The notes under the pieces were generated by a model. It made no database searches, had not been told where the DNA came from, and saw nothing but the letters and a program-made list of their open reading frames with translations. Positions 6,705-21,216 of a DNA stretch of 57,614 nucleotides are shown here, one piece after another (positions within the stretch are counted from its first letter, which is position 1; each line of letters opens with the position of its first letter). This DNA comes from a virus: positions 1-57,614 of IMG/VR virus record IMGVR_UViG_3300042934_000106; one strand, 5' to 3'. The translations under genes and the position numbers were made by a program.

Positions 6705-7535
6705 TCAGAAGTTGACTGCTGCGTAGTCGTCTGCGTCCTTGAGACGCAGGGTGTTGCTGTCCAGCTCCAGCCGGGCAAAGGTGTTACCCGATGGGTCAAC
6801 AACGCCTTCACGGTTCTTCACAGGACTGACGTTGAGGATGCGGTTCATACCGGCCTCATCAGGGTCCCGATGGATGGTCAGGATCAGTGAAGGGACACGA
6901 CCGATCTTGCCCTTCACACCAGACAGAGGGATGGGCTTTAGCCCATCACTCCACTCCCCCGTTACGTGATGGAGGGCCTGGACGTGAGCCTCAGTGTGTC
7001 GAGCCATCTCGGAGAGGTATTCACACATCCCCTCCAGCCCAAATGTGAAGGACTCCGCGTCACTGGCACCGCCAGTGTCCACGTTGGTGATGTTGTCCAC
7101 GGCAGCCAGATGTGGGTAGCAACCGAAGACCTCGTAATAGACGGCTAGGTCAGCTTCCATGTCTGCCGGCGTCGGCATGGCTTCGTAGTTGAACCTGATC
7201 CACCACTGCTTGGACAGACGCTCCTCGTACTCCTGGAACCGATCCTCCAGGATCGCCTTCTTCACATCCTTCACATTCTCGCCAGTCAGGATGGCCGTGG
7301 ACCTGGAGAGCTGCGTTGCAGCGTTCGAGTCCGCGGACCAGTACAAGACTGGCATGGAGCCATGGAGAGCAAGGTTCAGGGCGAACAGGCTCTTGCCTGT
7401 ACCAGGACCAGCAGCGACAAGGGACAACTCCCCTCGTCGGAACTCGACTTCGAGCTTGCGGAGACTCTCGAACGGCATCTTCAGGGGCTCACCAGACGAG
7501 CCCCGGATACGTGCGGACTGAGCCAGGGAATACAT
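6705..7535 (-). CDS. DnaB/RecA-fold replicative helicase or ATPase
   Basis: 276 residues from ATG 7535 (SD AAGGAG four bases before; an ATG 18 bases upstream lacks one). Walker A is GPGTGKS at residues 43-49, with a Walker-B-like hydrophobic strand ending in Asp (HLAAVDNITN, about residue 143) and a later LHHVTG segment like the DnaB sensor strand. The protein lacks the DnaB N-terminal domain, as in many small phage helicases. It probably unwinds DNA at the fork with the split primase. A strong hairpin terminator precedes it (7560-7588). Confidence 0.82.
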   Translation of the reverse strand: MYSLAQSARIRGSSGEPLKMPFESLRKLEVEFRRGELSLVAAGPGTGKSLFALNLALHGSMPVLYWSADSNAATQLSRSTAILTGENVKDVKKAILEDRFQEYEERLSKQWWIRFNYEAMPTPADMEADLAVYYEVFGCYPHLAAVDNITNVDTGGASDAESFTFGLEGMCEYLSEMARHTEAHVQALHHVTGEWSDGLKPIPLSGVKGKIGRVPSLILTIHRDPDEAGMNRILNVSPVKNREGVVDPSGNTFARLELDSNTLRLKDADDYAAVNF

Positions 7536-12516: not shown

Positions 12517-13014
12517 CTACTCCGGAGGCTCTGGTCCCAGCTCCAGGGCCTTCTTGAACTTCTCTGACGGGAACGGTAGTGACCTGGGCCAGTCGATGAC
12601 TAGTCGACCGTCGATCTTGAGCCGGGGCCTGTAGTACCAGCCCTCTTCGGTGTCTGGGTCGTAGCAGAGGACCGTGCCGTCTCGGTGAAGACGACGCTCC
12701 CAAGCCTTGGCTCGCTTGATCTGGTCCTCGCTCAGCTCGTCGCCAAGCCTCCACCTGAGCCACTCCGTCAGCCGCTTGGCTGAGTAGGAGTTGTGGTGAC
12801 TGTCCTTGCCCGGGGTGGTGTGGATGGTCCACCTCTGAGCCAAGCCAGCCTGGACCTCCCGTGCGATGGGATGGCGGTAGAGGCCCATGTCGACCAGACG
12901 CTTGCTTACGGCTTGTCGAGTAACTCCGAACTTGTCCGCAATGCGCTGGTTGTTCCAACCTAGATGGAAGTACTCCACCAGCTCCGTGTCTGTAAACCTC
13001 ACGTCGGTGGGCAT
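12517..13014 (-). CDS. Helix-turn-helix protein, probable immunity repressor
   Basis: 165 residues. Residues about 15-40 form a clear helix-turn-helix: NNQRIADKFGVTRQAVSKRL, in which IADKFGVTRQAV is the helix-turn-recognition-helix. The remainder is basic then aromatic (GWYYRPRLKIDGRLVIDW) and may be a second DNA-contacting part, as needed to read a long asymmetric site. Position (far end of the leftward early block), the single-gene unit with its own terminator (12478-12501) and the two variant operators in its upstream region (13109, 13203) make it the likely repressor acting on the dispersed GGTCGCAWGTCAAC sites. Family membership with L5 gp71 is inferred from role and layout, not from an alignment. 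Confidence 0.72.
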   Translation of the reverse strand: MPTDVRFTDTELVEYFHLGWNNQRIADKFGVTRQAVSKRLVDMGLYRHPIAREVQAGLAQRWTIHTTPGKDSHHNSYSAKRLTEWLRWRLGDELSEDQIKRAKAWERRLHRDGTVLCYDPDTEEGWYYRPRLKIDGRLVIDWPRSLPFPSEKFKKALELGPEPPE

Positions 13015-13216: not shown

Positions 13217-13392
13217 CTTACCGATCTTGGGGACTTTCCGCATCTCCTAGACCGTCAGATCTAGCCATAGACACCCTCCTGGGCCACCTGAGGCTGGTCG
13301 TTAACCCTTGGCCAACGGAGATGCTCCAGTCTATACCCTTAGGCATGTGATCTGAGTCTCACTTCCCCCTTGACTGTCACAAACCCTGCCTC

Positions 13393-13413
13393 AGTGACAC
13401 CTACGTCTATAGT
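13393..13413 (+). promoter_or_regulatory. Duplicated promoter-like element (copy 1)
   Basis: AGTGACACCTACGTCTATAGT; 18 of 21 bases match 44207-44227. Upstream of the rightward operator-promoter. Possible binding site or -10 region for a phage or host sigma factor. Confidence 0.5.
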
Positions 13414-13454
13414 AGAGAAGAAAAGAAGTACTTAAAAGCATGCCAACCCATCAA

Positions 13455-13484
13455 GTTGACATGCGACCAAGTACATGCTAGACT
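13455..13484 (+). promoter_or_regulatory. Rightward operator-promoter for late region
   Basis: The only rightward copy of the operator (reverse complement of GGTCGCATGTCAAC at 13455-13468). -35 TTGACA (13456-13461), 17-base spacer, -10 TAGACT (13479-13484). It precedes the hairpin array and the HNH gene. Confidence 0.82.
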
Positions 13485-13509
13485 GAAATTAAGAGAGTAA
13501 GTAGTTAGA

Positions 13510-13766
13510 GGGGCTCTTAAGGAGCCCCGATAAGTAGTAGTAAGTGAGTCTCCTTGAAGAGACTCACCAAGGTTTCCTTCTTGTTCGATCTCCCTGTTGA
13601 GTAGTTGGCCAAGGCTTCTAAGAGCCTTGGCTCTCGGTTCCAGGTTTGAAGAGATCCAGGAAGGTGTTGGGCCCCGGCTGCCAGTTCAGTATCCAGCCGG
13701 GGCCAGGACTTAGCCGTCTTCCGCGGGAAGACGGAAGCGGGATCAGGTGGCCTGGGGCAGACCAGG
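13510..13766 (+). ncRNA. Row of six hairpins in the late leader
   Basis: Perfect stems: GGGGCTC/GAGCCCC (13510-13528), GTGAGTCTC/GAGACTCAC (13544-13567), GCCAAGGCT/AGCCTTGGC (13608-13631), GGCCCCGGCT/AGCCGGGGCC (13670-13704), CCGTCTTCC/GGAAGACGG (13714-13734) and CCTGG/CCAGG (13751-13766). No gene covers them. About 25 bases past the promoter's -10 box and ending just before the HNH ribosome site. The only long open frame here (13646 onward) runs into the HNH gene. Confidence 0.5.
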
Positions 13767-13804
13767 AGCCTGGTTCTGCGAAGAGATTTCTTGGAGGTGC
13801 ACAG

Positions 13805-14122
13805 GTGCCCAGAGCCGCAATGATCTGCCTGCGAGCCGGCTGCATCTCCAAGACCTTCCGGGACGGACGATGCCGAGAGCATCAGACTCGGAAGCCCTGG
13901 CAGAACGTCTCAGCCAGGAACCAAGCAAGGCCGGCCAACTGGCCCTCCATCAGGGCTCAGGTGTTGGCAAGGGATGGGTTTGCCTGCCAGATGTGCGGAA
14001 CGAGATCCGAGCTGGAGGTTGACCACATCATCCCTGTGGCCAAGGGAGGTTCCTGGGAGATGGAAAATCTGTGGGTCCTCTGCAAAGAGGACCACAAGGC
14101 CAAGTCCAGGAAGTTTGGTTAG
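13805..14122 (+). CDS. HNH endonuclease next to terminase module
   Basis: 105 residues from GTG 13805, seven bases after GGAGG at 13793-13797; ATG 13820 is the alternative. The active region reads [20 protein letters not shown] then [11 protein letters not shown]: two zinc cysteine pairs around a His-His-Asn/His nuclease core. An HNH nuclease at the head of the terminase operon is typical of cos-packaging phages, where it helps terminase cut concatemers. It is the first gene after the rightward promoter and the long hairpin array. Confidence 0.87.
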
Positions 14123-14123
14123 G

Positions 14124-14197
14124 CCCTCGGTAGCTCAGTTGGTCAGAGCGTCGCCCTCATAAGGCGAAGGTCGCTGGTTCAAGACCAGCCTGAGGGA
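14124..14197 (+). tRNA. tRNA with CAU anticodon (Met or lysidine-modified Ile)
   Basis: A complete 74-base cloverleaf: acceptor CCCTCGG/CTGAGGG (one G-U pair), D stem GCTC/GAGC, anticodon stem TCGCC/GGCGA with loop CTCATAA (anticodon CAT at 14158-14160), T stem GCTGG/CCAGC with loop TTCAAGA, and discriminator A. No CCA is encoded. The C1-G72 pair argues against an initiator tRNA. A CAU anticodon can read AUG as Met or, if the C is changed to lysidine, AUA as Ile; the body does not settle which. Confidence 0.93.
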
Positions 14198-14420
14198 CGA
14201 AGGCACGTGAAGTCTAAAGCCGGTAGCTCCGGATGGCTGGGGATCGCCTCCCTGACGTGCCGAGGTGCCTGATAAGGAAGCGGTGGGGCCGTGCTCCTGT
14301 CCTTGTCGGGCCACGGGGAGGCTGGCCGTGTGCCGGCGTGAGTAAAAGCACCGATGGTGCCACAGGGTGCAAGTCCCTGACTCCCTACTAACCACACCAT
14401 CTAGTGACCGAGATGGCTTG
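14198..14420 (+). ncRNA. Structured gene-free RNA between tRNA and terminator
   Basis: No plausible gene lies here, yet the stretch has many complementary segments: GGCACGT (14202-14208) with ACGTGCC (14255-14261), several inner GC-rich pairs around 14222-14252, GCACC/GGTGC (14348-14360), and CAGGG-TGCAAGT-CCCTG (14363-14379), which is shaped like a tRNA T arm. It would be co-transcribed with the tRNA and end at the terminator 14421-14448. I could not fold it into a tRNA. It may be a decayed tRNA cluster or a distinct small RNA. Confidence 0.45.
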
Positions 14421-14448
14421 ACCCCGCTCACATCGAGCGGGGTTTTTT
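14421..14448 (+). terminator. Rho-independent terminator after tRNA region
   Basis: ACCCCGCT and AGCGGGGT form a perfect stem with a six-base loop, followed by six T. It separates the tRNA/RNA unit from the small genes leading to terminase. Confidence 0.9.
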
Positions 14449-14472
14449 CATTCCCTCAATCAGGAGTTCGTC

Positions 14473-20059: not shown

Positions 20060-20078
20060 CACCCTCTAACCATCTGTG

Positions 20079-20105
20079 AGCCCTCCACCTCCGGAGGGCT
20101 TTTTT
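20079..20105 (+). terminator. Terminator between scaffold and capsid genes
   Basis: AGCCCTCC and GGAGGGCT form a perfect eight-base stem with a six-base loop and a run of six T. There is no promoter visible between it and the capsid gene, so it must be partly read through or overcome by antitermination, perhaps to set the scaffold-to-capsid ratio. Confidence 0.85.
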
Positions 20106-20127
20106 CATGCCCTTTTGGAGGCCGTAC

Positions 20128-21216
20128 ATGGCTACTACGCACCACTTTAATCTTGACCCCAAGCAGGTCACCATTGCTGCTCTGGGTCTGCTTGACCGAC
20201 AGCTCACCCTTGGTTCTATCCCGGCTCGTTACTCTGAGCTGAACTTTGAAGGTGGCCTGGGTGACGTGATTAACGTCAACCGTCCGAGCCGCTCCATTCC
20301 GGTGCAGGAGACTGGCGTCTCTAACATCATCAAGAACACCATCACTGGTGACAAGAACGTCTTTGCCGCTGCTGCTGAGCGTCCGGACCCGACCAGCCGG
20401 CGGGCCCCGAACGGTTTCATCAACGAGACCCGATTCCCGGTCCAGCTCACGACTTTGGTCCAGAATGCCTCTCCGCTTTCGATGGAGCAGGTTGCTTTTG
20501 ACCTGAAGAAGTTCGGTGGTCAGATTCTGGCTCCGCTCACCCGCGGTATGGCTGAGTACTTTGATGACACCATTGCGGCCTGGATCAAGGCCAACATCAC
20601 GCGTGGGGGCCTGACCACGGCTCAGAAGAACGTCGTTGGTGGTGACGTTGAGGTTTCCATTCCGCAGTACGACGGCACCCGAGAGAACATGATGGAGCGT
20701 GCGCTTCGTCTGCGTACCGCGTTCGTTGATGCTCGTCTGGCTCTTCGTCGGGCGAACGTTCCAGACTCTGAGCGCTACGTCATTGCCGGCCCCGAGGTTG
20801 AGGCCATCCTTCTGAAGGACCCCGAGTTTGTGAGTGTCGACTACAGCGGAGACACCAACGCCCTTCGTCGGGCCACCATCGGTTCCTTCTACGGCTTCGA
20901 TGTCGTGATTCACAACTCGTTCGACCTGGAGATGTACTTCTTCCACAAGAGTGCCTTCCTCCTGGCCACCGTTTGCCCGGCTATCCCGATGGGTGCGGTC
21001 ACCGGTTCTGTCCAGTCCGTCAACGGCATTGCCACCCGCATGCTGGTCGACTACGACTACGACAAGAAGGCCGACACCATCGGCCTGGACACGATGTACG
21101 GCTTCACCACCATCAAGGAAGACCCGGACTACAACGTCCGCGGCACCGTGATCGGTGAGAAGTTCGTCCGTGGTCTGAAGGTGAACATCACCGAGGTTGC
21201 TCCGGTAACTCCGTAA
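20128..21216 (+). CDS. Major capsid protein
   Basis: 362 residues from ATG 20128 (SD GGAGG). Position after the scaffold, length and content are typical of the HK97/P22-fold major capsid proteins of actinophages: an N-terminal arm, a long helical spine segment, a beta-rich P domain and the C-terminal A domain. There is no clear protease gene, so maturation may not need cleavage. Confidence 0.92.
   Translation: MATTHHFNLDPKQVTIAALGLLDRQLTLGSIPARYSELNFEGGLGDVINVNRPSRSIPVQETGVSNIIKNTITGDKNVFAAAAERPDPTSRRAPNGFINETRFPVQLTTLVQNASPLSMEQVAFDLKKFGGQILAPLTRGMAEYFDDTIAAWIKANITRGGLTTAQKNVVGGDVEVSIPQYDGTRENMMERALRLRTAFVDARLALRRANVPDSERYVIAGPEVEAILLKDPEFVSVDYSGDTNALRRATIGSFYGFDVVIHNSFDLEMYFFHKSAFLLATVCPAIPMGAVTGSVQSVNGIATRMLVDYDYDKKADTIGLDTMYGFTTIKEDPDYNVRGTVIGEKFVRGLKVNITEVAPVTP

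Follow-up and report, generated by a model that had tools for sequence, protein, structure and literature searches.

We found that the leader of the late operon in a 57,614-nucleotide viral sequence (IMG/VR virus record IMGVR_UViG_3300042934_000106, the whole of which is called the window below) carries a two-armed RNA at positions 13574–13707, and we propose that this element serves as a processive antitermination RNA for the late operon, a proposal to which we give a probability of about 0.6 on sequence evidence. Conservation of the two-armed structure on the + strand is near certain. The sequence-only reading of the same DNA had described six consecutive stems between the rightward promoter and the ribosome site of the HNH endonuclease gene, and had offered an antitermination RNA, a processed leader or an independent small RNA as possible roles. 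All six stems were recovered by folding, four of them also as perfect inverted repeats, the sixth being weak. A functional unit of six equal hairpins was not upheld: the third and fourth belong to one conserved unit, and the two at either end of the row differ among relatives. Among the roles offered, antitermination is favoured because terminators recur inside related element-bearing late operons and covariation is positive, and the independent small RNA lost ground, no terminator lying closely after the second arm in the window.

The conserved unit, consisting of Arm I and Arm II, was recognised by folding relatives, and its core (13574–13707) was very stable, with a z score of -5.4. Its parts are as follows.

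13576–13664, + strand: Arm I, a long stem enclosing the third hairpin
13576–13583 with 13657–13664, + strand: Arm I P1, CCUUCUUG paired with CAGGAAGG
13584–13586, + strand: first bulge of Arm I, UUC in the window and UU in most relatives
13587–13592 with 13651–13656, + strand: Arm I P2, GAUCUC with GAGAUC
13593–13596 with 13641–13644, + strand: Arm I P3, CCUG with CAGG
13597–13598, + strand: second bulge of Arm I, UU
13599–13600 with 13639–13640, + strand: GA/UC pairs of Arm I, with the apical hairpin beyond
13608–13631, + strand: apical hairpin of Arm I, the third hairpin of the sequence-only reading, at the tip of the stem formed by 13576–13600 with 13639–13664
13670–13704, + strand: Arm II, an 11-base-pair stem (13670–13680 with 13694–13704) starting a few nucleotides after Arm I
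13681–13693, + strand: conserved 13-nucleotide loop of Arm II, YYAGAYMAGNANC

Within Arm I, the context UG-UU-GA opposite UC-CA is present twice, and plain UU was found at the first and second bulges in 38 and 37 of the 61 sequences compared, respectively. In the Arm II loop, A, G, G, A and C are invariant at five positions despite changes in the closing stem. Divergent members replace the inner Arm II stem GGCUG/CAGCC with GGAG/CUCC or GGCG/CGCC, and their loop is still YYAGAYMAGNANC.

Covariation in related phages, on which the sequence-only reading had staked its proposal, proved strongly positive. In a MAFFT alignment of 37 loci, tested against a structure that came from the window's own fold, 92.6% of cells were paired and 17 pairs had changes on both sides (0 of 500 shuffles). 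We then considered 61 distinct sequences, a set that includes divergent members found by a covariance model and whose alignment, unlike the MAFFT one, was fitted to that model; here 95.7% of cells were paired, and both-side changes occurred in 25 of the 30 modelled pairs. The covariation score of this set was 0.281, compared with 0.141 when shuffled (0 of 500) and at most 0.092 when slid. Paired columns held 75 G.U cells against 16 A.C cells, and this excess favours the + strand. A structure on the minus strand was disfavoured by the same excess and by folding of the whole leader (13485–13800), which gave a z score of -5.6 on the minus strand compared with -7.7 on the plus strand, where the fold energy was -153 kcal/mol, the mean of 100 shuffles was -112.6 and none of them was equally stable. 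When the window, the element region (E values up to 10) and divergent members were searched against Rfam (release 15), no family reached its gathering score with the element, which is an RNA family not listed in that release. The portions available to us of the literature on Ibantik, put-like RNA, actinobacterial processive antitermination and Streptomyces phage late transcription held no earlier report of it.

The late operon downstream of the element contains two predicted terminators, which the sequence-only reading had placed at 14421 and 20079; both are borne out by sequence, and similar ones recur in related element-bearing operons.

14420–14450, + strand: strong predicted intrinsic terminator between the HNH/tRNA and terminase genes, with a GC-rich stem and U run
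20078–20106, + strand: predicted intrinsic terminator between the scaffold and capsid genes, 5' of the capsid Shine-Dalgarno (SD) sequence at 20117–20121, with a GC-rich stem and U run

Two such terminators stand on the coding strand of the window's 32-kilobase (kb) late region, whereas 0.25 were expected in shuffles. The next SD and start follow within about 25 nucleotides of each, leaving too little space for a promoter, so the downstream genes need either readthrough or a promoter inside the upstream gene. We also considered the 20078 hairpin as a mask of the capsid SD, with an in-frame ATG at 20107 after the U run; this was rejected, the SD being at 20117–20121 and the likelier start at 20128.

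Among relatives, 23 of 48 segments from the element to TerL contained a coding-strand terminator, and the opposite strand of these 92 kb had none; in 24 of 34, at least one stood on the coding strand of the first 5.5 kb beyond the TerL start. These terminators have several different sequences. In the named phages Ponzi (26434, 29102 and 29827 in L171) and Success (6157, 9816 and 13182 in L174), coding-strand terminators immediately precede late genes (capsid, major tail and others), with no more than a few tens of bases between U run and gene start. Across the gene gaps of whole late operons, at a score threshold of 19, we counted 14 coding-strand terminators in 91 kb from four element phages versus two in 179 kb from nine relatives chosen by terminase homology; on the other strand the counts were zero and two. 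The rough binomial P for 14 versus two is about 1e-5, a value that ignores shared ancestry.

The natural candidate for a readthrough factor is an RNA near the promoter that preserves its structure while its sequence changes. Under the proposed mechanism, the two-armed RNA (13574–13707) would act in cis to serve a late operon of roughly 23 kb. Transcription would start near 13491, and the nascent RNA would fold into Arm I and Arm II. The arms would then bind RNA polymerase, directly or via a host or phage protein, through the loop of Arm II and both UU bulges in Arm I, and the modified polymerase would pass the terminators at 14420 and 20078. As a consequence, terminase, capsid and tail genes would be made only from transcripts begun at the proper promoter. 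Both the binding of polymerase and the readthrough of terminators by the element are inferred from sequence.

Several points weigh against this proposal. If the terminators were simply leaky, the sequences would look no different even with no antiterminator at work. Because the four genomes with the element are related to one another, the contrast in terminator counts does not represent many independent events; of the nine controls, the model was run on part of one, Thermobifida phage P318, and the others are presumed to be element-free. About half of the element-to-TerL segments, for example that of L017, have no U-tailed terminator by our scan, and one late terminator is present even in L145, where the element is not clearly seen. 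The window genes that were tested, a subset of the total, included none recognisable as N, Q or NusG-like. With regard to the segments lacking U-tailed terminators, some clades may use U-poor ones, as hinted by a hairpin after HNH in L076.

Part of the evidence could also be read as a protein-bound leader, whose arms bind a phage or host protein that controls how stable the late transcript is, how it is processed or how it is translated, with the terminators partly effective or otherwise tuned. Two UU bulges in like context and an invariant loop resemble protein-binding sites, and the loop letters are retained while the stem changes. This explanation, which we consider unlikely, leaves by itself the recurrence of coding-strand terminators in these operons unexplained. 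In its form of control over HNH translation it meets a variable distance between element and HNH; in one clade a tRNA-like sequence intervenes, for which reason an HNH-specific riboregulator was disfavoured. An attenuator would instead set early stop versus readthrough at the element's own apical hairpin, with no lasting effect on polymerase. Eight relatives (L004, L005, L006, L008, L018, L035, L053 and L071) do have a T-rich run after the Arm I apical hairpin, which scores as an intrinsic terminator, but the run is missing in the window, in Ibantik and in other clades. Since transcription yields the Arm I 5' strand ahead of the apical hairpin, with no competition between the two in the predicted fold, and since the terminators farther downstream would remain unexplained, we regard attenuation as very improbable.

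The stability of the folded core would suit an independent small RNA, cut out of the leader or self-terminating and acting in trans. However, the window has no terminator soon after Arm II, and the fixed place of the element 5' of the late operon suggests cis action, making a trans-acting RNA a highly improbable account. Least credence goes to a DNA site, in which the inverted repeats would serve packaging (cos/pac) or repressor binding. The element does adjoin the HNH and terminase genes, a common placement of packaging sites, but pairing is kept as stem sequences change and G.U cells are frequent, both pointing to RNA. The deposited genome of Ibantik, if its ends are physical, ends elsewhere in the genome; together with the G.U excess, this disfavoured a cos/pac site.

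Processive antitermination, our preferred explanation, has precedents among RNA elements that make polymerase ignore terminators, and those named are put, EAR and the RNA part of conAn (PMC8955417). The put RNAs of phage HK022, putL and putR, have two stem-loop arms with internal bulges, are about 70 nucleotides long and act in cis (PMC9378689). Put and the present element both have two bulged arms, and each stands close to the promoter of a phage operon that contains terminators farther along. They differ in size, the element being roughly 90–140 nucleotides, and in setting: put occurs in two copies in an early operon, whereas the element belongs to a late operon of phages with high-GC Gram-positive hosts, with one copy per genome where searched. 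The covariance model R2 found no match (E values up to 10) and the motifs were absent in the 26–34 kb region of HK022, in a record where the put sites are not annotated. The element would work most like HK022 put and like the RNA part of conAn, an analogy by which we claim neither homology nor membership. HK022 put itself binds the zinc-binding domain of the polymerase beta-prime subunit and brings about readthrough with no protein factor. A narrower version of our proposal, in which the RNA alone, in the manner of put, would bind actinobacterial RNA polymerase and control the late operon across the phage family, is tentative and somewhat doubtful; if true, phages would offer a second and independent example of RNA antitermination that needs no protein.

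The conAn system of pLS20-type conjugative plasmids combines the conAn2 RNA with the ConAn1 protein; it too places an RNA at the start of a long operon in Gram-positive bacteria, with many internal terminators (PMC8955417). In contrast to the element, which belongs to a phage late operon, conAn is a plasmid system with a protein partner; the two were likened by description. The same paper cites EAR RNA of Bacillales exopolysaccharide operons as RNA-based antitermination of a long operon (PMC8955417). The element has no Rfam match. EAR is a family with an Rfam entry. Lambda N/nut and Q likewise antiterminate phage operons but are protein-based, and none of the window genes tested was recognisable as encoding an N- or Q-like protein. 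In the available portions of the literature searched, no actinobacterial case of RNA antitermination was found. The family is directly testable, since its position is fixed, terminators already lie downstream and 61 natural variants have been aligned. If antitermination is true, it would explain late gene expression in these Streptomyces-group phages, supply a tool for getting polymerase past the terminators of long gene clusters in Streptomyces, and provide a comparison case for RNA binding to RNA polymerase.

The remaining hairpins of the leader surround the two arms. Perfect inverted repeats were found at 13544–13552/13559–13567, 13608–13616/13623–13631, 13670–13680/13694–13704 and 13714–13722/13726–13734, and the sixth hairpin (13744–13781) was weak, with a z score of -1.4.

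13510–13528, + strand: leader hairpin 1, 8 pairs, in some relatives only (z score -4.4)
13544–13567, + strand: leader hairpin 2, 9 pairs, its sequence varying among relatives with pairing maintained
13714–13734, + strand: extra hairpin 3' of Arm II, not conserved

Hairpins 1, 2, 5 and 6 are variable between clades: relatives have zero to three hairpins 5' of Arm I and a varying count 3' of Arm II.

The window shares 71% DNA identity with Streptomyces phage Ibantik over the region, and gene order is alike in the two, with different genome starting points. The leader sits in a divergent gap with the repressor on one side and HNH on the other. Leftward genes include the repressor, exonuclease, helicase and primase; the rightward genes begin with HNH, followed by terminase, portal, scaffold and capsid.

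12517–13014, leftward: repressor gene
13456–13484, + strand: sigma-70-like promoter, TTGACA-17-TAGACT with TG ahead of the -10, identified by sequence and conservation in the clade
13805–14122, + strand: HNH endonuclease gene, its GTG start placed from the SD
14124–14198, + strand: tRNA-Met (CAT)
862–1419, - strand: sigma-factor-like protein (PHROG 354 'sigma-K factor', E value 1e-20)

The promoter is the sole sigma-70-like site within 12.5–15.5 kb (0.5 expected in shuffles), and TTGACA/TAnACT is conserved in the window's clade, 79–167 nucleotides 5' of the element. The HNH gene probably starts at the GTG at 13805, with the SD GGAGG at 13793–13797. A second motif, ACACCKACRTnnnTAGTGA, whose window copy at 13397–13415 reads ACACCTACGTCTATAGTAG, is conserved in several clades, some of which lack the TTGACA/TANACT promoter, at 45–224 nucleotides 5' of the element, and is possibly a phage promoter or operator. 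The sigma-factor-like protein is kept in Ibantik, Ponzi and P318, where it is annotated as a sigma factor, and that of the window could direct phage promoters. Because the window encodes this protein and the second motif lies upstream in many relatives, late promoter choice may be phage-controlled. Positions 13346–13364 (TGTGATCTGAGTCTCACTT) form a GTGA/TCAC dyad, variants of which are repeated in gaps of relatives; it is perhaps a repressor operator.

The 61 distinct copies lie, where checked, 5' of HNH/terminase genes in Streptomyces-group phages and prophages, among them the named phages Ibantik, Ponzi and Success. A loop-pattern scan returned 61 IMG/VR stretches, 13 of which were chance matches without a stem and were excluded; in one-per-species genomes it gave six loci, all in Streptomyces or Kitasatospora. 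The covariance model detected the element in 8 of 392 genomes sampled at the level of the genus and 2 of 394 at that of the class, one genome being common to both, a low frequency expected of a prophage element. Low-score matches on the opposite strand of Arm II were palindrome artefacts. When loci were sampled by terminase protein, a criterion blind to RNA, 46 of 50 carried the element, in every case 5' of TerL at a distance of 1.0–3.5 kb; of the other four, two are covered for just 2 kb upstream, and L145 and L169 showed no clear copy. In P318, a more distant relative, the model had no match in the part searched; positions 6805–7020 of its sequence (L173) hold four different hairpins in series 5' of an HNH-like sequence, without Arm I or Arm II, which may constitute another leader of this kind.

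Two tRNA-related observations were made in addition. Between tRNA-Met and the terminator at 14420, the window segment 14199–14410, in which neither ARAGORN nor Rfam called a tRNA, contains a tRNA-like T arm (GGGTGCAAGTCCC), and Ibantik has an annotated 93-nucleotide tRNA-Gly at roughly the matching position. In L090, positions 2215–2251 match the Rfam abiF RNA exactly at the gathering score, within a phage tRNA cluster.
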